Shown here piece by piece: positions 7,459 through 18,930 of a DNA stretch of 64,000 bases; position 1 is the first letter of the stretch; every line of letters starts with the position of its first letter. Both the position numbers and the translations under genes were made by a program. The DNA is taken from contig NZ_JAWJZH010000001.1 in the NCBI RefSeq assembly GCF_033063295.1, positions 2,666,001-2,730,000 of the forward strand. The letters are read 5' to 3'. A model generated the notes under the pieces. That model saw only the letters and a list, made by a program, of their open reading frames with translations. It did no database searches and was not told where the DNA came from. This stretch comes from Nitrosomonas sp. Is35 (GTDB lineage Bacteria; Pseudomonadota; Gammaproteobacteria; Burkholderiales; Nitrosomonadaceae).

Positions 7459-8175
7459 CTAATTAGGATAAATAACTGCCGGTAGCGCCTCGAACGCCGG
7501 GCGAGCAAACAAATAGCCCTGAAAAAGAACAATCCCCTCGTTCCGGAGCCACTCATACTCCGCAGCGGTTTCCACACCCTCGGCGACTATATCAATCCCG
7601 AGATCTTCACAAGTGCGTAACACACCGCGAACAATCGCTTGCCGCGGTCCGCGGTGCTCGATATCCCGTACCAATAGCATATCCAATTTGACCGCCTCCG
7701 GCTGAAACTCAGCCAACAAGTTGAGACCGGAATAACCGCTGCCAAAATCATCAATGGCAAACTTGACACCGAGTCTGCGGCATTGATTGGCATGTTCGAC
7801 AAAACAATCGAAATCCTTGATCGTCTCCGATTCGCTCACTTCGAGCACAAGTTGATCCGGCTTCAAACCGTATTGAACGGCCATTTCCACCATGGCCTGC
7901 AAGGCTTCCATGCTTGATCCATCCTCGAAATCCGCCATAGCTTCCGGCAACACGTTGAGGTTGATGCGGCTAGATAGTCCGAGCTGAGCGCTTAATTTGA
8001 TTGCCCGCAGCCTGGCATCCGCATCAAAGGCGCGCAGCTGTGCCGCATTATGTTGCTTCAACACCCAATTTGCGGGTTCGTTGTTGGGACCGCGGACCAG
8101 AGCCTCAAAAGAATGTGTTTCATGTTTTTCGACATTCACTATGGGTTGGTAAGCAAAAGTAAATTCAAGAGCCAT
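7459..8175 (-). CDS. Stand-alone EAL-domain c-di-GMP phosphodiesterase (motifs intact)
   Basis: The product of 238 residues is one EAL domain with no other module. All the usual catalytic signatures are visible: FEALVRG, INLNVLP, LVLEVSESE, IDDFGSGYSG, VKLDMLLV, IVAEGVET and LFQGYLFARP. It is therefore predicted to hydrolyse c-di-GMP to pGpG. It starts 15 bp after the BLUF-EAL stop with an AGAGGA box upstream, so the two are almost certainly co-transcribed. It is clearly related to the EAL half of its neighbour, suggesting duplication. Having no sensor of its own, it may take its input through that neighbour. Confidence 0.9.
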   Translation of the reverse strand: MALEFTFAYQPIVNVEKHETHSFEALVRGPNNEPANWVLKQHNAAQLRAFDADARLRAIKLSAQLGLSSRINLNVLPEAMADFEDGSSMEALQAMVEMAVQYGLKPDQLVLEVSESETIKDFDCFVEHANQCRRLGVKFAIDDFGSGYSGLNLLAEFQPEAVKLDMLLVRDIEHRGPRQAIVRGVLRTCEDLGIDIVAEGVETAAEYEWLRNEGIVLFQGYLFARPAFEALPAVIYPN

Positions 8176-8190
8176 GTTTTGGGATCCTCT

Positions 8191-9399
8191 CTACAAAAGA
8201 TCGGCGGGAAGCATTGGCCGCGGCAGCGATTCAAAGCCTGGTTTGGCGAACAGGAAGCCCTGAAATAGCTCGATACTTTCATCGCGCAGCCAAGAATATT
8301 CTTCTATGGTTTCTACGCCCTTGGCAATAATATCCACACCCAAATCGCGGCAAGTCTGTATCAAGCCTCGCAAGATAGCCTGGCGTGCCCCATGACTCTC
8401 GATGCCGCGAACAAGCCACATGCTGAGAGAAATCATCTCAGGTTGATAATGTTCCAGCAGGGCGAGGCCAGAATAGCCAGAACCAAAATCATCGATACTG
8501 ATGCGCAATCCTTGGCGCCGTGACTCTTTCAACCATTCGCTAACCGCCGATGGATTGCTCACGGTCGCTTCGTGCTTGAGTTCGAATATGATTCGAGTGA
8601 TGTCAATGCCGCAAAGCCTGGCAGTTTCGAGCGAAGACTCAATAGTCTTGGGCGCGTTTGCCCAAGAATAGGGAAAAACGTTCAAGTGGAGATTTCCTGC
8701 GATGCCGAGCCTTGAAGCAAAACCGATTGCCATACGGCGGGCATCTTCATCAAAAGCGCCGAGCTCACCCAATTGAATGTGTTGCAGCACATCCGCAGCA
8801 GTGCCGGTTTCTTTCGAACGAACCAGCGCCTCATAACCGGAAACCATTCGCCGGGAAGCATCAACGATCGGCTGAAAAGCAAATGTAAAGACCGGGCGAG
8901 GCTCAATAACTCTTTTCTTTTTACCGCCCACCCGTGTTACTAGCGGCGGAGACTGTGTCGTGGCTGATAACCTGACGCGCCAACGGCCTTGCTTAAAGGC
9001 AATCAACAATTTCTTCGCGCGGCCGGAATCGATATCGGTCAAAACGTTGCCAGTGGTGAAAAAATCATTTAAGCCCTCAATTTCATTCAGATCTTTTAAG
9101 GAGATCTGCGTAAATCCCATGGTCCACTCGCTGAATGCGCGTTTTACGATTGGTTCACGGATAATTGTAGTCATGCGGGTATGCCTGGGATCTTGGCGAA
9201 TTGTCTCTGCCAGCGCATTCACAGTATTTTCCGGCCCTTCCAGCACCTGAAAAAAACAACCTTCGATATATAGCAACATACCCGTAATATCGAGCGAAGC
9301 ATTTTTACTGCGCGCCTTTCTTAACATGACGGAAAAATCTTCTTCCGTGAAAGCACAAGTTGCAGCGCTATTGTAAATCAGATGAATCAGGTTACTCAT
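8191..9399 (-). CDS. BLUF photoreceptor fused to a degenerate EAL domain
   Basis: The product of 402 residues has a BLUF domain (about 1-97) and an EAL domain (about 170-395). Flavin-pocket residues fall at exactly the spacing of AppA: Tyr9, Asn33, Gln51, Trp92 and Met94. It should therefore bind FAD and respond to blue light. In the EAL half, E190-A-L, Asn240, Glu273 and Asp303-Asp304 are kept. The Lys and Asp of the usual KxD motif are Ser324 and Ser326, and the Glu of EGVE is Lys360. Phosphodiesterase activity is therefore doubtful. BLUF-EAL enzymes such as BlrP1 are known; this one may be a light-dependent regulator or partner of the intact EAL protein encoded next. Confidence 0.9.
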   Translation of the reverse strand: MSNLIHLIYNSAATCAFTEEDFSVMLRKARSKNASLDITGMLLYIEGCFFQVLEGPENTVNALAETIRQDPRHTRMTTIIREPIVKRAFSEWTMGFTQISLKDLNEIEGLNDFFTTGNVLTDIDSGRAKKLLIAFKQGRWRVRLSATTQSPPLVTRVGGKKKRVIEPRPVFTFAFQPIVDASRRMVSGYEALVRSKETGTAADVLQHIQLGELGAFDEDARRMAIGFASRLGIAGNLHLNVFPYSWANAPKTIESSLETARLCGIDITRIIFELKHEATVSNPSAVSEWLKESRRQGLRISIDDFGSGYSGLALLEHYQPEMISLSMWLVRGIESHGARQAILRGLIQTCRDLGVDIIAKGVETIEEYSWLRDESIELFQGFLFAKPGFESLPRPMLPADLL

Positions 9400-9480
9400 G
9401 GAATCCCTTCGGCTATGGCCATAAACTGCAAATCTCCTTTATATTGGCATTGAGTTTCTAAATACAAGTCTCCCAATCGT

Positions 9481-9768
9481 TTATTTTTTCCTTAAGTAAC
9501 CACCTCGTGAAATAGCAGGTGTCATAAGTAGATTTTTCTTGTAATTGATAGGCGGGAGAGCCCTGCAATGAAGCAATCGAAATTCAGTGGTAACCCGATC
9601 ATGACGATACTCAGACAAATGGAAACCCGCATTCCGGCCCCTTAACTGTGCCGTGAACCGGGTATGAGCAATGCGGCATTTCTGCTGGCGCCACCGTACG
9701 ATGTGTCTGGGCGTTAATGTGGATAGAAAGGAAAGGCCTAAAGCTGAAACGCCCCCTTCTCCAATCAC
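9481..9768 (-). other. Doubtful 95-codon open frame
   Basis: A minus-strand frame begins MIGEGGVSALGLSFLSTL and ends GGYLRKK. I recognise no domain. It is rich in Arg and His, its start lies inside an inverted repeat (CGCCCCCTT at 9750-9758, AAGGGGGCG at 9772-9780), and no clear ribosome-binding site is seen. It may be a chance frame, or a short relic within the 630-bp gap between the BLUF gene and the oxidase operon. Confidence 0.2.
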
Positions 9769-10033: not shown

Positions 10034-12784
10034 TTATGGAACAGGATTAAGCTGAGAAGCGGTCAAATTTGTTTTCCATGAATCCGGTAAATTTTGAACC
10101 CATCCATTATAAATATTTGGAATTGCATAAACACCCTGACCACCCGTACCTGCTAGCTTCGTGACTGTATCATCGGTTGGCACGCTCCTGTCAGCAACCA
10201 ACGAGATCCGCCCAGCTATTTTTGAATTGGCGGGATTATCCAAATCCACGTCGACAACAATCAACTGATTTGAAAACTTGCTTGTCACATAGGCATAGTA
10301 ACCTCCGCCCAATTTTGCACCGAAATTGGCTCCATGGCACCCCGGATCACAAGGCAGCATCGCAACAACTTTGTCCAATTTCGTATCAATGATTGTGATT
10401 GAGCCGCCAGTATTGGCAGTTACTACCACACGGCCGGTCGGATCAACCGGTGTTTGGATAGGAAGTACGCCTACTGTGGCCAGACCATCTCCATCACGAT
10501 CTTTGACGGTATCAGGACCGGTCGGACTGACAGGATCATAATCGGCGATAAGATTAATGGTTTTCAGTAGCTTTCCACTAAAGTCGCTAACATTCATGGA
10601 ATGATCCAACAAATTAGTCGTATAGACTTTATCCACACTGACTCCAACAGCAAGCGGGTGAGGTGCTGCAGGAAAAATACCACCCGCAGGTGTTCTTGCA
10701 ACGATACCACCGGTCGTTGTATCGTAGAGACCAATGTCAGAGGTATTCACATTGGGTGTCACAATCAACTTACCATCCGGTGTAACCCAGTGACCATGCG
10801 GTGCTGCTGCTGTTTGACCTGGAAGCTGAGTCATTATCATAGGTTGAGGCGACATTGTCCCCGCTGGAATGATTCGAACCCCATTTTCACCGTTAATAGC
10901 CACAGTAAGATCATCATTGGTAGGTAGAGTTACGACATGCGATGGCGTATTCCCAATCTGGATGTTATTGATTAATTTGCCATCTTCGCGATTAATAAAT
11001 GTCAGTTTATTATCAAACCATTGTGTCTGAAAGACGATGGTCTGATCGCTATTACTCCACATGTTGTGGGGATGATTCATATTAATTTCAGGCAAAGCGA
11101 TTTTTCGCTTGATTTTCCAAGTCGAGGCATCCAATACCGTAATCGTGCCCGGTTTCGTTTTACCGGCAGTTTTCTCAAACTGTGTATTAATCCATACTTC
11201 TCCGACACCCGGCGTAGCTGGATTAAAGAGACTTGCTAGCTTTATGTCCTGGCCGTACCGGCTCTCCAGTACCGTTTTTAAATTTGCTACCGCTCCTCCT
11301 GTGATACGAACATCGACACTCGGATATTCCGGATGCCAAGGGTTGGGCGATGTATAATTTTGCCAGTTTTCCTGAGTAGTGGCGACAAAGAAAGTTCTGA
11401 GTAAACGGGTTGCTAGATCACTACTGGTCGGAAGGTTATTGATACCTGTCACGATATCGATCGATTCTCCCAAATCCAACCCATCTGTTGCAGGATCATC
11501 GACGATCACAGCACCGAACATGTAAGGATGTATCTTGCAGGTAAATACATATAGACCCGGCACATCCAGCTGCAAAATAGCGCCACCTTTATAAGCCTTG
11601 GTTTGACTGAATGGTATAACACGATGATCACCATGATCGGTATCATTGGCATCGCTAGGCCAGAGTAACGACGTTATTGTATGCACAGCGTTGGTATCCG
11701 ACATAATGAAGTGCACACTGCTACCCGGAGGAATAATTTCCAGTGAGCGAGTTTTGGTAATGGGACTCAGTATATCGCTGCGGACACTTCTGAAGAATTG
11801 CCCCGGCTCATCGGAGATCTCAAAGGTTACAAGACCGGGTACACTGGCAGTTGGATTAAGAAAAATCTTGCCGCTAGGAGAAGCTCCAGCAAGACTATCA
11901 CCCGATTCACCTTTAGCGGCTACATGAAATTTTCCAGCCATGCCAGCTTCCATATGCGAAACCAGATGACAGTGATATTGCCAATGCCCGGTTCCAACCC
12001 CTGCGCCCGCTTTGATTGTGAAAGAGTGGCTGTCTAAAGTATCTTTCAGCAATTTCACATCAATAATTGAATCGCTGTTATTGTTATCAGGCCAGCGATG
12101 CGCATGCAAATGCCAAGTATGGCCGGGACCTACAGAAAGAATATGAAACCTGACAATGTCATCCTGTACAGCTCCAAGAGTAGGATTAGTCCATAATGGT
12201 CTTTGTACGCCATTGACAGTTTCCGATCCCCAGAACGTCGAGCCGACCATGAACATTACAAATTCTTTATCCACATCGCTGCGCTTTGTTGCGACGCGAT
12301 TGCCGATTTCATCGACGAAATCTTGTACCGAGCCATCGGCATGATCAACAACGAGTGCACCGAATAATCCAAGCAAATGCGAAGATTCGTCACCATAAGC
12401 AAAGGTACCCACATCATTTGCGGTGTAAGTGTAGGTTCTTGCTTCGCCATAGGCAACTTCAATGCTACCAACTGTTAATCCAACTTTGAATTGCGTGCCA
12501 CCGGGTAGTTGAATATTGTTGGTCAGTGTTACGTTAAGGATATCGCCTTTTTTTACAAATACGGTCGGGCCTGGAATCGTTGCTTCAGCCGGATATAACG
12601 GGGTTGGGCCGTCACTGCTAGTATGCTTTTCCATTTTAAAAGCATACTGTCCATTGGGGAGAGTATTCGCGGATAGATGAATGTCATGCGTAGCTGCAAA
12701 TGTGTTACCGGCAAACCATAAGACAGAAAACAACACAAGCGTCATCATGGTCTTAAAATTTAATCCTGAAATATTTAATTTCAT
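10034..12784 (-). CDS. Multicopper oxidase-like protein with extra cupredoxin and beta-propeller; keeps only domain-2 copper ligands
   Basis: The product of 916 residues has a signal peptide (about 1-31). Cupredoxin domain 1 (about 40-150) and domain 2 (about 170-290) resemble a two-domain multicopper oxidase. A third cupredoxin (about 310-430) has a type-1 site (His368, Cys416, His419, Met422), and a repetitive beta-propeller-like region follows (about 480-916, with units such as GTITVLDAS and NKLTFINREDGKLI). Domain 2 keeps the HxxHxH set (His222, His225, His227) and HCHxxxHxxxxM (271-282). Domain 1 has lost its trinuclear ligands: the HxHG place reads KVG at 100-102 and the HxH place reads GDE at 131-133. 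An AAAGGAT box precedes the ATG. It is the second gene of a two-gene operon, 32 bp after the shorter oxidase, and probably acts in the periplasm. The substrate is unknown. Confidence 0.85.
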   Translation of the reverse strand: MKLNISGLNFKTMMTLVLFSVLWFAGNTFAATHDIHLSANTLPNGQYAFKMEKHTSSDGPTPLYPAEATIPGPTVFVKKGDILNVTLTNNIQLPGGTQFKVGLTVGSIEVAYGEARTYTYTANDVGTFAYGDESSHLLGLFGALVVDHADGSVQDFVDEIGNRVATKRSDVDKEFVMFMVGSTFWGSETVNGVQRPLWTNPTLGAVQDDIVRFHILSVGPGHTWHLHAHRWPDNNNSDSIIDVKLLKDTLDSHSFTIKAGAGVGTGHWQYHCHLVSHMEAGMAGKFHVAAKGESGDSLAGASPSGKIFLNPTASVPGLVTFEISDEPGQFFRSVRSDILSPITKTRSLEIIPPGSSVHFIMSDTNAVHTITSLLWPSDANDTDHGDHRVIPFSQTKAYKGGAILQLDVPGLYVFTCKIHPYMFGAVIVDDPATDGLDLGESIDIVTGINNLPTSSDLATRLLRTFFVATTQENWQNYTSPNPWHPEYPSVDVRITGGAVANLKTVLESRYGQDIKLASLFNPATPGVGEVWINTQFEKTAGKTKPGTITVLDASTWKIKRKIALPEINMNHPHNMWSNSDQTIVFQTQWFDNKLTFINREDGKLINNIQIGNTPSHVVTLPTNDDLTVAINGENGVRIIPAGTMSPQPMIMTQLPGQTAAAPHGHWVTPDGKLIVTPNVNTSDIGLYDTTTGGIVARTPAGGIFPAAPHPLAVGVSVDKVYTTNLLDHSMNVSDFSGKLLKTINLIADYDPVSPTGPDTVKDRDGDGLATVGVLPIQTPVDPTGRVVVTANTGGSITIIDTKLDKVVAMLPCDPGCHGANFGAKLGGGYYAYVTSKFSNQLIVVDVDLDNPANSKIAGRISLVADRSVPTDDTVTKLAGTGGQGVYAIPNIYNGWVQNLPDSWKTNLTASQLNPVP

Positions 12785-12816
12785 TATTTTATCCTTTGAA
12801 TTGAGAAATGTGCTTT

Positions 12817-13860
12817 TTAGGGATTAACAGTGAAACTACCGGTCATGTTTTGTGCTTTACCCGCAAAAGATGCATCCATATAGCTGGAACTAGCGCCAGC
12901 TTTAATAGCAAAAACATGTTTCTCAAGTGGACCGATTGCTTTTTCCTCAATAATGGTCCGAGTTGCCGGATCAGGCCAGCTATAACCGGGCAGTTTAAAT
13001 TGATGAAAGTTAGTCCCCATTGCGATCAGATGAAACCGGATATTTGTTCCAGCCTGAGCCGATAGCGCCGGATTAACCCAAATTGGCGTTTGTTGACCTG
13101 TGCGATTGTCAATTTCTGTTCCAACAAAGGCATCGTCTATGACGTATAAAATGTAATCTTTAGCAATACTTGAAAGTGGAACACTGGTAATACCACCGTC
13201 TTGGCCAATAGATACGGTTCTCGATGCTGGATTGACAATCAGAGCACCGTACAGACCTTTGTCTTCCGCGCCATTGTGGGTATGCATATTGTGATCATGA
13301 TATGCCCAGGTACCGGCTGTGCCGAACGCAGCGTCCCAGCGGTATGTATATGACTGAACCAATGTTGCGCCTTCATCTTTAAATAAATTGATGTATTTAA
13401 GCGTACCGTCACTGACGATATCGTAGTGCACACCATGTACATGGAGACTGACATTCTCGTGCAGATCGACATGATCTGCGTTTTCAGGGATAGGAACTTC
13501 ACTATAAAGTGTGATTTCGGCTACATCACCTTCATCCATGATAATAGTCGGGCCGGGGATGATAGGAGCCGTACTATAACGGGAGGTAATGTCAGTGGTC
13601 AGGCCATTTTTATCTGTAATTTCGTGCCGTATCATCCCATAAGCAAGATATTCATAATCTGGATGGGGTTTTTTAGCATACATCTCGATACGATGGAGAT
13701 TATGCGCTGCAACATTGCTTATATAAATGAAGCACGAGATCGCGAGCAGTAAGCCAAAAATAGCAATCCGTTTTGCATAGCCATTCGATCGAATTGTTCC
13801 GGGAGTACACAGCGAGCTGTCTAAATTCGGTGGAAATTCTTTCTGACACTTACTTTTCAT
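12817..13860 (-). CDS. Two-domain multicopper oxidase-like protein; keeps only domain-1 copper ligands
   Basis: The product has about 347 residues. I chose the ATG at 13860 because GGAGG lies 8 bases upstream; an ATG eight codons earlier lacks one. A roughly 30-residue polar N-terminus precedes a hydrophobic segment (IAIFGLLLAISCFIYI), which acts as a signal peptide or anchor. Domain 1 keeps HVHG (His140, His142) and HDH (His188, His190). Domain 2 aligns with that of the downstream protein, but HxxHxH has become H-Q-F-K-L-P and HCH has become M-D-A, so no type-1 or trinuclear ligand set is left there. This complements the neighbour exactly. It is the first gene of the operon, with two copies of an 18-bp palindrome upstream. 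Confidence 0.85.
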   Translation of the reverse strand: MKSKCQKEFPPNLDSSLCTPGTIRSNGYAKRIAIFGLLLAISCFIYISNVAAHNLHRIEMYAKKPHPDYEYLAYGMIRHEITDKNGLTTDITSRYSTAPIIPGPTIIMDEGDVAEITLYSEVPIPENADHVDLHENVSLHVHGVHYDIVSDGTLKYINLFKDEGATLVQSYTYRWDAAFGTAGTWAYHDHNMHTHNGAEDKGLYGALIVNPASRTVSIGQDGGITSVPLSSIAKDYILYVIDDAFVGTEIDNRTGQQTPIWVNPALSAQAGTNIRFHLIAMGTNFHQFKLPGYSWPDPATRTIIEEKAIGPLEKHVFAIKAGASSSYMDASFAGKAQNMTGSFTVNP

Positions 13861-14380: not shown

Positions 14381-15733
14381 TCAATACGCATTCGTTTTAA
14401 AATAGCTGGCAATATTTCGTAAATCATCCAGTACCAGTGTGCCTGCTGCTAACTGCAAGCGCAGATAGGCCAGTAGATAATCAAACCGCGCCTGTGAAAG
14501 ATCGCGCTGTGCGGTATACAGTTGTTGTTGCGCATCCAAAAGATTTAAATTGATGCGGATACCGCCACGGATGCTTTTTTCTGTCGCGTCGACGAGCAAT
14601 TCGGCCGACTTGACGGCCAGTTCCAATGATTCAATTTTTTTGACGCCGCTTTTTAGCAGGTTGTATTGTTTTTTCAATTCGACCAGTACTTTGTCGGTTA
14701 CCGCGTCGAGATCCGCTTCCGCACGCGCGTGATTCGCTTTAGCCTGAGCCGTGAGGGCGTTTACACGGCCGCCGGCATATAGAGGAAAGTTGACTTCAAC
14801 ACCGATTGTGCCAAGCTCGGCATCTTGATTGCGTGTGATAAATGATCCTCTATTGTTTTTGGATAAACTGGCGACTAAATCGACGCGTGGTGTATGTCCG
14901 GCAAAACTCTTTCTGATTTCCTCCTTACCGGATGTTACCGCATGGCGTTGTGTCATCAGCTCGGCATTGCGTTCCAGCGCCAGAGCATACCAATTGTCAT
15001 AATCTTGCAACTGAATGGCGTGCGTATTAAATGCATCGGACAATCGGTCTAACTGGTTTATTTTTTGCCCGATGATGGCTTCAAGTTTAAGTTGGGCTCC
15101 TTCCAGCTCATCATTGGCTTCAATAACACGTGCTTGTGCAATGGCGTGTTTCGATTGTGTTTCCAAAACATCGGTCGTTGTTCCCTCGCCCTTGATTAAC
15201 ATGCGCTCATTGACGCGTTTGAGTTCTTCTAGGGAAGTCAGCTGTGCTTCTGCGAGCTTGACATGATCTTGTGCCAGCAATGTTTCTACATAAGCTTCTA
15301 CTAACCTTACAATGAGCTGCTGACTGCGCCCGGTAAATTTTGCCCGGCTGGAATTGGCTTGTGCTTTTCCAATTCGATAGCTTGCAACCGCTTCCAAATT
15401 GATCAAAGGTTGACGCAAAGTCAACGAGCTTATCTGACTATCAAAAGTAACAACGTCAGAAACACTTTGACCGGTTTGTGTTTTACCCGTAATGGTTCCT
15501 GAGCTTCTGTTTTGTGTATGCGTGATTGAAAGGTTGGGCAGCAAGCTTGCTAAACCGATGGCTTCGGCTTGTTGTCCGGCTTCATTTTCATGATAAGCTG
15601 AGCGATAAGTCGGGTCATGCTGCAATGCAGCTTCATAAGCATCTAAGAGGCTCATTGCATAACCATGGCTGATCGGGCTCAAGAAAAACCCGGCCATGAC
15701 TAAAATTTTACGGATATCTATCATTACCGTCAT
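14381..15733 (-). CDS. TolC-family outer membrane channel of a type I secretion system
   Basis: The product of 450 residues has a signal peptide (ILVMAGFFLSPISHGYA) and two outer-membrane-efflux-type halves with long helices (LLDAYEAALQHDPTYRSA, SQQLIVRLVEAYVETLLAQ, TDVLETQSKHAIAQARV, INLNLLDAQQQLYTAQRDL). The TolC trimer spans the outer membrane and periplasm and joins the HlyD-type adaptor. Its ATG overlaps the adaptor stop (ATGA at 15733-15730). The channel, adaptor and ABC genes lie directly downstream of two giant repeat proteins, so this is most likely the dedicated exporter for them. Confidence 0.93.
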   Translation of the reverse strand: MTVMIDIRKILVMAGFFLSPISHGYAMSLLDAYEAALQHDPTYRSAYHENEAGQQAEAIGLASLLPNLSITHTQNRSSGTITGKTQTGQSVSDVVTFDSQISSLTLRQPLINLEAVASYRIGKAQANSSRAKFTGRSQQLIVRLVEAYVETLLAQDHVKLAEAQLTSLEELKRVNERMLIKGEGTTTDVLETQSKHAIAQARVIEANDELEGAQLKLEAIIGQKINQLDRLSDAFNTHAIQLQDYDNWYALALERNAELMTQRHAVTSGKEEIRKSFAGHTPRVDLVASLSKNNRGSFITRNQDAELGTIGVEVNFPLYAGGRVNALTAQAKANHARAEADLDAVTDKVLVELKKQYNLLKSGVKKIESLELAVKSAELLVDATEKSIRGGIRINLNLLDAQQQLYTAQRDLSQARFDYLLAYLRLQLAAGTLVLDDLRNIASYFKTNAY

Positions 15734-17082
15734 TCTTCACTCAAGGCCGAATGAACGCGATCCAGGATCGGTTTGAAGAGATAGCTCATCAGCGAGCGTT
15801 CACCGGTTTTAATGAATATTTCCACCGGCATGCCGGCGCGTATTTGTTGATCGGTCAGCTTTTTCATGCCTTCCGGTGTAACCTTGGCCTTGATATTATA
15901 AAACGGAAGCCCGCTGCGTTCATCCATAAGACGATCCGCCGATACTTGGGTGACGGTGCCCGGTATGTTAGGGGTTTTCTTTTGATTGAGCGCGGAAAAA
16001 ATAAGATCGACAGGAAGGTCTACGTGCACCCGGTCAATCAGATGAACCGGCACTTGCCCGGTGATGATCAGCATATCATCGCTCGGAACGATATCCATGA
16101 GCTTAAATCCCGGGCTAATCACACCGCCTTCGGTAAAAACGTTCATACCGACCACAAAACCGTCGACAGGTGCTTTGACTTCTACGTTAGCCAGTTCAAA
16201 ATCCTGTCCGCTCAGGCGGCTGCTTAATGAATCAATTTCCCGCTTGATATCGGATAACTGTTGCCGCACTTCTTTCTGGTATTCCTGCTGGCGGTGAATG
16301 CGCCGCTGTTCCAATTCGGCTATTTGGCGTTGGATGCGGCCGATATTGCCGGTTTCCGCAGAAATCTCCCCGGTCAATTGGATATACGTGCGTTCGAGTT
16401 CCAACACGCGATTGCGCGGGACGAAACTATCCTGTGCCAAGTCGCGCAGATTGACAAGCTGCTCTTCCAGAAATTTCAATTGCGCATTTTTACTGGCTCT
16501 GGATGCTTCCAGCCCGCGCAATTGCATTCTTGAGCCGGCAATATTTTCTTCCAGTGCCGCGATTTCATGATGCAAGGCTAACTGGCGCGATGTGAATAAT
16601 TGGTTCTGAGTGATGATGTTATTGGCGATACGCGGATCATGCTGGGATGTGAGCAAGTCCTGCGGAAAAGTGATTTCCTTGCGGCCATCGCGCTCCGCCA
16701 ATAGACGCGCTTCCACTGCGCGCGCGGTATACAGCTGACTGCGGGTGATTTCAGCTTGTGCTTTGAGCTGAACATCATTCATCCGGACTAAAACTTGGCC
16801 AACCGCAACATGCTCTCCTTCCTTCACCAGAATGCTGTCGATAATGCCGCCGATTTGATGCTGGACCGCTTGCAGATGACTGGCGACCGTGACCGTGCCG
16901 GGAACCGGCACGCCTTTATCCAGCGGTGCGAAAGATGCCCATAGAATAAATCCGCCAAAGCCTGCCAGAACGATCCACCAGCCCAATTTGGTATGGAGTG
17001 TCTCATCGGTGTCAACCTGATGGGATAAATCGGCGGGAACATTTTCAATAACGGTCTTTTTCTCTTCAGCTGCAAGCTTCAT
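15730..17082 (-). CDS. HlyD-family membrane fusion protein of type I secretion
   Basis: The product of 450 residues has one N-terminal membrane segment (about 33-55, WWIVLAGFGGFILWASFAP). A lipoyl-like half follows (GTVTVASHLQAVQHQIGG), then a long coiled coil (about 90-290, many Arg/Glu/Leu) and a second lipoyl/beta-barrel part (VKAPVDGFVVGMNVFTEGG). This is the PrtE/HlyD adaptor architecture linking the inner-membrane ABC protein to the TolC channel. It lies 60 bp after the ABC gene and overlaps the TolC gene by 4 bp. Confidence 0.93.
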   Translation of the reverse strand: MKLAAEEKKTVIENVPADLSHQVDTDETLHTKLGWWIVLAGFGGFILWASFAPLDKGVPVPGTVTVASHLQAVQHQIGGIIDSILVKEGEHVAVGQVLVRMNDVQLKAQAEITRSQLYTARAVEARLLAERDGRKEITFPQDLLTSQHDPRIANNIITQNQLFTSRQLALHHEIAALEENIAGSRMQLRGLEASRASKNAQLKFLEEQLVNLRDLAQDSFVPRNRVLELERTYIQLTGEISAETGNIGRIQRQIAELEQRRIHRQQEYQKEVRQQLSDIKREIDSLSSRLSGQDFELANVEVKAPVDGFVVGMNVFTEGGVISPGFKLMDIVPSDDMLIITGQVPVHLIDRVHVDLPVDLIFSALNQKKTPNIPGTVTQVSADRLMDERSGLPFYNIKAKVTPEGMKKLTDQQIRAGMPVEIFIKTGERSLMSYLFKPILDRVHSALSEE

Positions 17083-17142
17083 TATTCTTCCTGTCCGGTA
17101 ATCTGTATGTGCTCAAGGTAAGGTTGAAAGGCGCGGTAAAAA

Positions 17143-18930
17143 TTAGCCGGTTTGAGAGTCGGCCGCAGGCGTGGTTGGAGGTGCTGGATTTTGCGCAGCT
17201 TGCTGCCCGGCTTTCTTTTGCGCCAGCTGCGCCTGATGCGCTTGTTGTTGCTTTGCGAGCGCCTCCACCACTTGATTGGTCGGCCCGAATATTTTTGCTG
17301 CGCCGTCCTGCAATAGCAGCAATTTTGTGGTTACACTGAGAATACTGGTGCGGTGTGTGATCAACACGATGGTTTTGCCGCGTATGCGCAGATCGGTGAT
17401 GGCTGCCAGAAGCGCCTGTTCTCCAATATCGTCCAGGTTTGAATTGGGCTCATCGAGAACAATCAGGGATGGATCATCATACATGGCGCGCGCCAAGCCG
17501 ATGCGTTGTTTTTGTCCGCCGGAAAGACCGGCGCCGCCGTCACCCAGATGCGTGTCGTAACCTTCCGGCATATTCAGGATCATGTCATGAACCCCGGCGC
17601 GTCTGGCTGCCAGAATAACTTTTTCCGCATTGATTTCGCCAAAACGGGCGATATTTTCCGAAACCGTGCCAGCGAAGAGTTCGATATCCTGCGGCAGATA
17701 ACCGATATGCGGACCCAATTCATCCTTGTTCCACAGATAAACATCGGCGCCATCCAAGCGGACCTTCCCCGCCGCTGCCGGCCACACACCGACCAATAAG
17801 CGCGCCAGAGTTGATTTCCCCGATCCGCTCGGGCCGATAATGCCAAGCACTTCACCGGCGGCGAGGGAGAAATTCAATCCCTTGATGACGGGAACTTTAC
17901 TGCCGGGTGGAGCTGCGGTGACATTTTCCACCGCAATCACGCCGAGCGGTTTAGGCAGCGCCATGCCAGCCGTTCGCTCCGGATTCTGTTCGAGCAATTG
18001 TGTCAGACGCTCATAAGCGCTGCGGGTGCCGCCAATTTGCTTCCACACACTGATGAGTAACTGTACCGGCGCGATGGCTCTGCCCAACAGAATTGAACCG
18101 GCGATCATCATGCCCGGCGTGATGCTGTTATCCAGCACCAATAAAGCGCCTAATCCCAGCATCAGCGACTGTAATGCGACGGTACACGATTTCGACAGCG
18201 CGGTGACAATACCTGATTTCTCGCTGGCCTCGGCTTGCAGATTGAGAAAACGGCGATGCAGCTTATACCAGCGCGCTTGGAGATTAGGCAGCATGCCCAT
18301 CGCTTCGATGACTTCGGCATTGCGTAAATTGTTGGAGGCGATATTGCTGGACGCAATCGACATCGAATTAGCTTCGGCTAGCGGTTTATGCGAGATCTTC
18401 TCATTGATGTACGCTAATGCAATCAATATGACTGTGCCGCATAAAGCGAAAACTCCCAGAATGGGATGAAACATGAATATCACGAACAAATAAATCGGAA
18501 ACCATGGTGCGTCAAAAAAAGCGAACAAGGCATTGCCGGTCAGGAACTGCCGTAGATTAGTCAGATCTTTTAAAGCTTGCCCGGCGTTGCTATCGCCTTT
18601 TTTGAGGCTTTCCTCAAAGGCGGCGGTGTAAACGCGCTTGTTCAACTTCATGTCGAGTTGCGCGCCGACACGGATCAATACAAAGCTGCGGACGAATTCC
18701 AGCGCGCCCATGAAAATGTAGGCGCCTAACATGATCAATGTCAGCATCAACAGAGTCATTTCATTGCGGCTGGTCAGTACGCTGTCATACAGTTGCAGCA
18801 TGTAAATGGCCGGCATGAGCATCAGCATGTTGATGACTGCACTAAAAACACCAATGTTTCTAAAGGTCTTCTTAAAGCCGGTCAGTACCTGCGCAATTTC
18901 ATTCTGAGGCGCTTTAAATTTGAAATTCAT
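17143..18930 (-). CDS. Type I secretion ABC transporter, PrtD type
   Basis: The product of 595 residues fuses a six-helix membrane domain (about 20-310) to an ABC ATPase (about 330-560). Walker A GPSGSGKSTLARLL, signature LSGGQKQRIGLARAM and Walker B LIVLDEPNSNLD are intact. There is no N-terminal C39 peptidase or C39-like domain, so it fits the PrtD/RTX-protease branch, which reads a C-terminal export signal. The last 40 residues are a Gln/Ala/Pro-rich tail of unknown use. It lies 154 bp downstream of the 2057-residue substrate gene and leads the exporter trio. Confidence 0.95.
   Translation of the reverse strand: MNFKFKAPQNEIAQVLTGFKKTFRNIGVFSAVINMLMLMPAIYMLQLYDSVLTSRNEMTLLMLTLIMLGAYIFMGALEFVRSFVLIRVGAQLDMKLNKRVYTAAFEESLKKGDSNAGQALKDLTNLRQFLTGNALFAFFDAPWFPIYLFVIFMFHPILGVFALCGTVILIALAYINEKISHKPLAEANSMSIASSNIASNNLRNAEVIEAMGMLPNLQARWYKLHRRFLNLQAEASEKSGIVTALSKSCTVALQSLMLGLGALLVLDNSITPGMMIAGSILLGRAIAPVQLLISVWKQIGGTRSAYERLTQLLEQNPERTAGMALPKPLGVIAVENVTAAPPGSKVPVIKGLNFSLAAGEVLGIIGPSGSGKSTLARLLVGVWPAAAGKVRLDGADVYLWNKDELGPHIGYLPQDIELFAGTVSENIARFGEINAEKVILAARRAGVHDMILNMPEGYDTHLGDGGAGLSGGQKQRIGLARAMYDDPSLIVLDEPNSNLDDIGEQALLAAITDLRIRGKTIVLITHRTSILSVTTKLLLLQDGAAKIFGPTNQVVEALAKQQQAHQAQLAQKKAGQQAAQNPAPPTTPAADSQTG

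Follow-up and report, generated by a model that had tools for sequence, protein, structure and literature searches.

The 64,000-nucleotide stretch of the Nitrosomonas sp. Is35 genome analysed here (the window; assembly GCF_033063295.1, contig NZ_JAWJZH010000001.1, positions 2,666,001 to 2,730,000) carries on its minus strand two adjacent genes for multicopper-oxidase-like proteins, which we call the small and the large subunit (Table 1). The genome is 3.3 Mb in size, and the named relatives of the small protein come from N. supralitoralis, N. marina, and Nitrosomonas metagenome-assembled genomes (MAGs). A pseudogene or frameshift in the window was considered and rejected: both open reading frames (ORFs) are intact, and their identities to relatives are 44-69% (small) and 56-84% (large). 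Pfam assigns Cu-oxidase_3 to both proteins and Cu-oxidase_2 to the large one, and each contains the two cupredoxin domains of the laccase fold (D1 and D2) that mark the SLAC-type enzymes. In the single-chain structure models, the mean predicted local distance difference test (pLDDT) score was 79 for the small and 78 for the large protein, and loops close to the ligands scored low. All 50 listed Foldseek matches of the small model were two-domain laccases; such laccases were also among the 50 listed matches of the large model, the first at rank 11 (approximately 1e-13 to 1e-12). The loops beside the orphaned sites of the small model were among its low-confidence parts, as might be expected of a chain modelled without its partner, and would fit other causes too.

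Table 1. Features of the two-gene locus (positions in the window; residue numbers refer to each protein).
Feature	Positions	Strand	Remarks
Small subunit gene, 347 aa	12817..13860	minus	Signal-like start (by reading); GGAGG shortly 5' of ATG
Small D1	within 12817..13860	minus	Cupredoxin; trinuclear-cluster H140, H142, H188, H190
Small D2	within 12817..13860	minus	Degenerate cupredoxin; fossil type-1 site H286, Cys replaced by D329, M339
Intergenic gap, 32 bases	12785..12816	minus	GGA-type ribosome site ahead of large ATG
Large subunit gene, 916 aa	10034..12784	minus	Signal-like start (by reading); laccase half D1-D2, D3, propeller
Large D1, residues ~30-148	12341..12697	minus	Cupredoxin, copper ligands gone; PF07732 at 62-148
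Large D2, residues ~159-289	11918..12310	minus	Type-1 H222, C272, H277, M282; cluster H225, H227, H271, H273
Large D3, residues ~300-430	11495..11887	minus	Amicyanin/pseudoazurin-like cupredoxin; H368, C416, H419, M422
Propeller, residues about 522-905	10070..11221	minus	Seven-bladed, YVTN-type; conserved H573, H616, H663, H665, H709, H817

In the SLAC-type laccases, D1 of each chain joins D2 of a neighbouring chain to form a trinuclear copper cluster. The earlier note on this DNA had claimed that the two genes have reciprocally lost the ligands of this cluster, and every residue that it assigned was located as claimed in both proteins. The small D1 keeps HVHG (H140/H142) and HDH (H188/H190), and the small D2 reads H286-Q-F-K289-L-P291 and Y327-M-D329-A in place of its ligands. 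In the large protein, D1 reads K100-V-G and Y-G131-D-E at the ligand places, and D2 keeps H222/H225/H227, H271-C272-H273, H277, and M282. Alignment with 8aip and 3tas, both two-domain laccases, placed the lost residues exactly at ligand positions, which excludes misalignment. A complete set of cluster ligands is thus present in neither chain, the small one lacking the D2 set and the large one the D1 set. Taken together, the pair has the ligands of a multicopper oxidase: four histidines in the small D1, and four histidines plus the type-1 His, Cys, His, and Met in the large D2. What the earlier note overlooked is the C-terminal part of the large chain, namely, the D3 cupredoxin and the propeller.

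The same pattern was found across the relatives. Ligands were scored at 81 loci using the corresponding stretches of 8aip and 3tas as a ruler. This covered 81 small proteins, of which 79 were distinct in sequence, and 76 large ones of nearly full length, of which 75 were distinct. The set excludes loci L039, L040, L042, L043, and L044 (copies of other genomes taken), L098 and L101 (fragments), L074 (a cut small copy), and L130 (a wrongly chosen stretch); it includes two loci of one genome (L045 and L141) and two with an identical small protein (L119 and L120). Histidine occupies each of the four trinuclear positions of the small D1 in 81 of 81 proteins. At the four cluster positions of the small D2, 80 of the 81 proteins have no histidine, and L065 has one, at the second HCH position. 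In the large D2, all eight positions (the type-1 His, Cys, His, and Met and the four cluster histidines) are occupied in 76 of 76 proteins. The four positions of the large D1 carry no histidine in 31 of the 76 proteins and one in 45, and never more than one. All the near-full-length copies scored therefore display the reciprocal pattern, and its invariance over 81 small and 76 large proteins excludes chance. The small D2 also retains a fossil of the type-1 site. Its histidine is kept and its cysteine replaced with aspartate in 70 of the 81 proteins, both are asparagine in 8, and other combinations occur in 3; the axial methionine remains in 78. This paired change suggests that the two residues may still be in contact.

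The two genes also stay together. A large ORF lies directly downstream of the small gene in 78 of the 81 scored loci, and three of these large genes are broken (L047, L056, and L057). Of the other three, L060 has its small gene at a contig end and the large counterpart at the edge of a different contig in that genome (L061); at L095 (G063), the contig breaks off shortly after the large gene begins, and the remainder is on another contig; the third is L041, described below. Among the ORFs read at the fetched loci, no fusion of small and large subunits into a single ORF was seen. Presence was further counted in 125 Nitrosomonadaceae genomes with cut-offs of E < 1e-100 for the small protein and E < 1e-70 for the large D1-D2. 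The small gene was found in 72 genomes and the large in 71; 71 had both (including broken copies in G008, G017, and G063) and 52 had neither. In G011, the small gene is accompanied by a truncated large one, and G074 has a decayed large fragment only. The large genes at L047 (G011), L056 (G017), L057 (G008), and L098 (G074) show N-terminal deletion, split frames, or decay to a fragment, and these broken copies record that the pair is lost now and then. Two pairs are present in the window's genome and three in G077; G028 has, in addition to its pair (L073), an extra small copy (L074) that is cut at a masked stretch and has no large neighbour.

The carriers include N. marina, N. supralitoralis, and two other genera of Nitrosomonadaceae. 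Searches across the order (300 genomes) and the phylum (398 genomes), which took in a few Nitrosomonadaceae, gave matches only in the same genus. Weak matches of the small protein in G360, G378, G385, G405, and G807-G809 were treated as other oxidases. When 299 genomes of the phylum were searched with a SLAC query, the best match was the large subunit of the window's genome. Homologues in which either gene occurs alone with the same losses had been named in the earlier note as evidence that would speak against the split. Pairing holds nearly throughout Nitrosomonadaceae, and one possible solitary copy was found, a small gene in a Nitrospirota MAG (L041) that is considered below.

Phylogenetic analysis was carried out with 19 pairs and five canonical oxidases, including three outgroups on long branches. 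One of the outgroups (L079:5409-6440, from G012, Nitrosomonas) is a multicopper oxidase of two domains whose single chain bears both half-sites. The small and large proteins each formed a one-sided group (support of 100/98 and 100/99, respectively). The two subtrees branch in mostly matching order, with L053 and L119 placed differently, and the pairwise distances of small and large proteins correlate with r = 0.91 over 71 pairs, a value that common ancestry by itself also raises. The simplest story for the sequences is that a SLAC-type gene was duplicated, likely once, in a Nitrosomonadaceae ancestor before the genera split, and that complementary loss followed.

We consider it probable from the sequences that the pair represents a duplicated two-domain laccase whose copies have kept complementary half-sites and which acts as a hetero-oligomeric, O2-reducing oxidase. 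The small copy would have retained only the D1 half of the trinuclear site, and the large copy the D2 half and the type-1 copper, becoming fused to a cupredoxin-propeller protein that also exists alone. The products are presumed to be exported and loaded with copper and to form a hetero-oligomer, in which the small D1 would lie against the large D2 and the half-sites would make up one complete O2-reducing trinuclear cluster; the small D1 is most plausibly the source of the half that the large chain lacks. Electrons would enter via the type-1 copper of D3 and/or the propeller and pass to the type-1 copper of D2 and over the Cys-His bridge, which connects it with two cluster histidines, to the cluster. 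The partnership may well be obligate, as the earlier note had proposed along with exactly one cluster. A closed three-subunit ring of the laccase type, built from two small and one large or one small and two large subunits, would contain exactly one complete site. Any function more specific than that of a multicopper oxidase is putative. As for the substrate, the plainest guess is cuprous copper, and iodide and nitrogen oxides are possible. The proposal makes the origin of a locked hetero-oligomer directly testable by mixing the two proteins.

D3 of the large chain has a full type-1 copper set (H368, C416, and H419 in 76 of 76 proteins; M422 invariant in the 27 aligned) and is probably the electron inlet. 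The propeller, which may form a second active site, serve for docking, or act as a scaffold, has six conserved histidines in fused and free-standing forms alike (five of the six fetched free-standing proteins were compared, the L086 protein having escaped the motif used). A free-standing form of 617 residues is encoded in the window's genome itself (L084:8255-10108) and is related to the large subunit over the latter's C-terminal two thirds; such cupredoxin-propeller proteins occur in many Nitrosomonas genomes, some of which have no pair.

A Pfam scan of the propeller returned weak propeller matches only, and among the matches listed by VIA-align there were only propellers and no NosZ. The clade III lactonase-type NosZ (L-NosZ; lactonase-type NosZ is mentioned in PMC11033732 and PMC13122619) likewise combines a lactonase-like propeller bearing conserved histidines with a cupredoxin. 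In the pair, however, the cupredoxin precedes the propeller and is of type 1 rather than CuA: D3 has a single cysteine (C-x-x-H-x-x-M), whereas the CuA cupredoxin has two, as in C-S-H-F-C of L187, and the propeller has six conserved histidines instead of the seven for CuZ. The L-NosZ profile NF052460 matched the free-standing L084 protein weakly (1e-7; 30.9 bits against a cut-off of 700) and also 12 of 27 large proteins weakly, the window's propeller not being listed. This likeness is unspecific, as the hydrazine synthase beta profile matched 11 and the general profile TIGR03866 all 27 of the same proteins. At an E-value of 1e-6, the L-NosZ profile matched 228 of the 349 genomes searched and also 4 of 14 controls, and the window's genome had no match; weak matches to it are thus widespread among propellers. 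Alignments to an L-NosZ sequence were weak and blade-shifted. The gene at L187:1324-3117, from the same order, is a full-score clade III L-NosZ and the sole one above the cut-off in the 349 genomes. We regard it as distinctly unlikely that the large chain comprises two copper enzymes, in which a His-ring copper of the propeller, related to that of nitrous oxide (N2O) reductase, would oxidise the substrate and be wired through the amicyanin-like domain to the shared laccase site, where O2 would be reduced. If true, the pair would represent a new kind of oxidase in ammonia oxidisers that uses O2.

Several observations weigh against the proposal that the two subunits share one split cluster. The single D1 histidine of 45 of the 76 large relatives, which is absent from the window protein, stands at the first HxH position, and the remaining type-1 histidine of the small D2 is asparagine in 9 of 81 proteins. 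In the tree, the large group joins SLAC, but the support (82/68) is too weak to decide which group is closer to SLAC or whether small and large are nearest kin; a single duplication is thus likely rather than certain. The pair is missing from 52 of the 125 family genomes, some of which are incomplete, indicating that it is dispensable for ammonia oxidation. The Nitrospirota MAG contains the small gene only (L041, 5896-6960); its contig stops 103 bases after the gene, and no large gene was found in the rest of the MAG. Among 48 genomes of the family of this MAG, a strong match occurred in that MAG only and weak ones in three. A transfer, a chimeric contig, or a solitary copy are possible explanations. 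The neighbours of this gene are, by reading, sensor-kinase genes. Finally, a further oxidase of the window's genome, L002, carries the motifs of both half-sites on a single chain whose domain order is reversed, the type-1 motif being in the first domain, and is a possible alternative partner. The genome has seven Cu-oxidase_3 matches: four are the two pairs, and the others are a CuNIR (L005), a CueO-like protein (L001), and L002. The L002 protein (L002:979-2688) is a 569-residue multicopper oxidase with HxxHxHG and HCHxxxH in its first domain, HTHG and HDH in its second, and a C-terminal hydrophobic stretch. These motifs remove one argument for the split, namely, that the genome would lack any further two-domain oxidase.

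Among the alternatives, an oxidase of cuprous copper under copper stress, like CueO/CopA and in split form, has the most to recommend it. Periplasmic multicopper oxidases are commonly cuprous oxidases in copper stress, and the CopA profile TIGR01480 weakly matches 27 of 27 large proteins. The window protein, however, scores 29.4 bits against the CopA cut-off of 479, CueO is not among its matches, the genome already has a CueO-like oxidase of 537 residues (283 bits, itself below the cut-off of 525), and the conserved propeller would stay unexplained. We therefore hold this explanation unlikely. Cupredoxin domains frequently serve in proteins that have no cluster, and the pair could also act separately, as two products of one operon that transfer electrons or bind copper. 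The four histidines of the small protein would then bind metal for another purpose, the large protein would use its type-1 coppers only, and there would be no trinuclear cluster. The assembly of the pair is itself a proposal, and the MAG in which a small but no large gene was found would fit such independence. The invariance of the four small D1 and four large D2 histidines at the places of the laccase cluster, including the HCH bridge, and the strict co-occurrence in Nitrosomonadaceae make separate roles very unlikely.

Two further alternatives concern the substrate. The pair could oxidise iodide in marine nitrifiers, in the manner of the two-protein enzyme IoxA/IoxC. PMC12335899 reports that two marine cultures of ammonia-oxidising bacteria formed iodate from iodide and that some Nitrosomonas have ioxA/ioxC homologues, and the pair is present in N. 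marina and N. supralitoralis. It is, however, present in two other Nitrosomonadaceae genera as well, and Iox was compared through its published description; we give this assignment little credence. It is even harder to accept that the pair is the missing oxidase that makes nitrite from nitric oxide when bacteria oxidise ammonia, a step to which, to our knowledge, no enzyme has been assigned: in the genomes searched, the pair was found only in the ammonia-oxidiser family and one Nitrospirota MAG and its propeller half is weakly like N2O reductase profiles, but an essential central enzyme should be universal, and 52 of the 125 family genomes are without the pair.

The surroundings of the pair vary. 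Neighbouring genes were clustered for 43 loci, and clusters present in more than 10 loci were covered; no gene family adjoining all pairs was found among the clusters listed. The commonest neighbour among them is a LuxR-type response regulator, found at 22 of the 43 loci, approximately 1 kb upstream in 21 and elsewhere at L096. Upstream of the second pair of the window's genome are tandem regulator genes (L008:7958-8683 and 8947-9765), the first of which encodes a response regulator with a LuxR-type domain and belongs to the family found approximately 1 kb upstream at the 21 loci. ABC-transporter ORFs like the neighbour of the window's pair occur among the listed clusters at 7 of the 43 loci in varying positions, and secretion genes are thus no conserved neighbour. 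In the window, a type I secretion set (PrtD-type ABC, HlyD, and TolC; 14381-18930) precedes two giant ORFs of 2057 and 5578 residues (19084-42237). Two adjoining EAL-domain genes lie at 7459-9399, the upstream one having a BLUF blue-light sensor domain.

No earlier account of such a split oxidase was found in searches of open-licence papers. The pair would add one conserved, uncharacterised copper enzyme to the ammonia oxidisers, in which the biochemistry of copper is incompletely understood. In IoxA/IoxC, as in the pair, a multicopper oxidase is accompanied by another protein, and homologues are reported in Nitrosomonas (PMC12335899). According to the description in PMC9415286, IoxA alone has four conserved copper-binding regions. 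The pair has no single chain of ~62 kDa with all the copper-binding regions, and this description of IoxA (PMC9415286) sets the pair apart as distinct from IoxA/IoxC.

The nearest solved proteins of both chains are the SLAC-type two-domain laccases. These enzymes (8aip, 3tas, 3cg8, and Ssl1) share with the pair the two-cupredoxin fold, the ligand positions, and the type-1 copper in domain 2. In SLAC, every chain has both halves of the site, and the homotrimer ring contains three clusters, whereas each chain of the pair has one half. The manganese oxidase MnxEFG is a multicopper oxidase that acts as a multi-protein complex; its MnxG subunit has a complete cluster of its own, unlike the pair, whose halves are split. 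Ceruloplasmin also has one cluster, to which the first and the last domain of its cupredoxin ring contribute, the inner sites having been lost, but it is a single fused six-domain chain, and the halves of the pair are encoded by two unfused genes. The evolution of multicopper oxidases is thought to have led from homotrimeric two-domain enzymes to fused three- and six-domain chains by loss of the inner sites. The pair displays site losses without fusion, suggesting a path of duplication, complementary loss, and mutual dependence that has been retained through a bacterial family.

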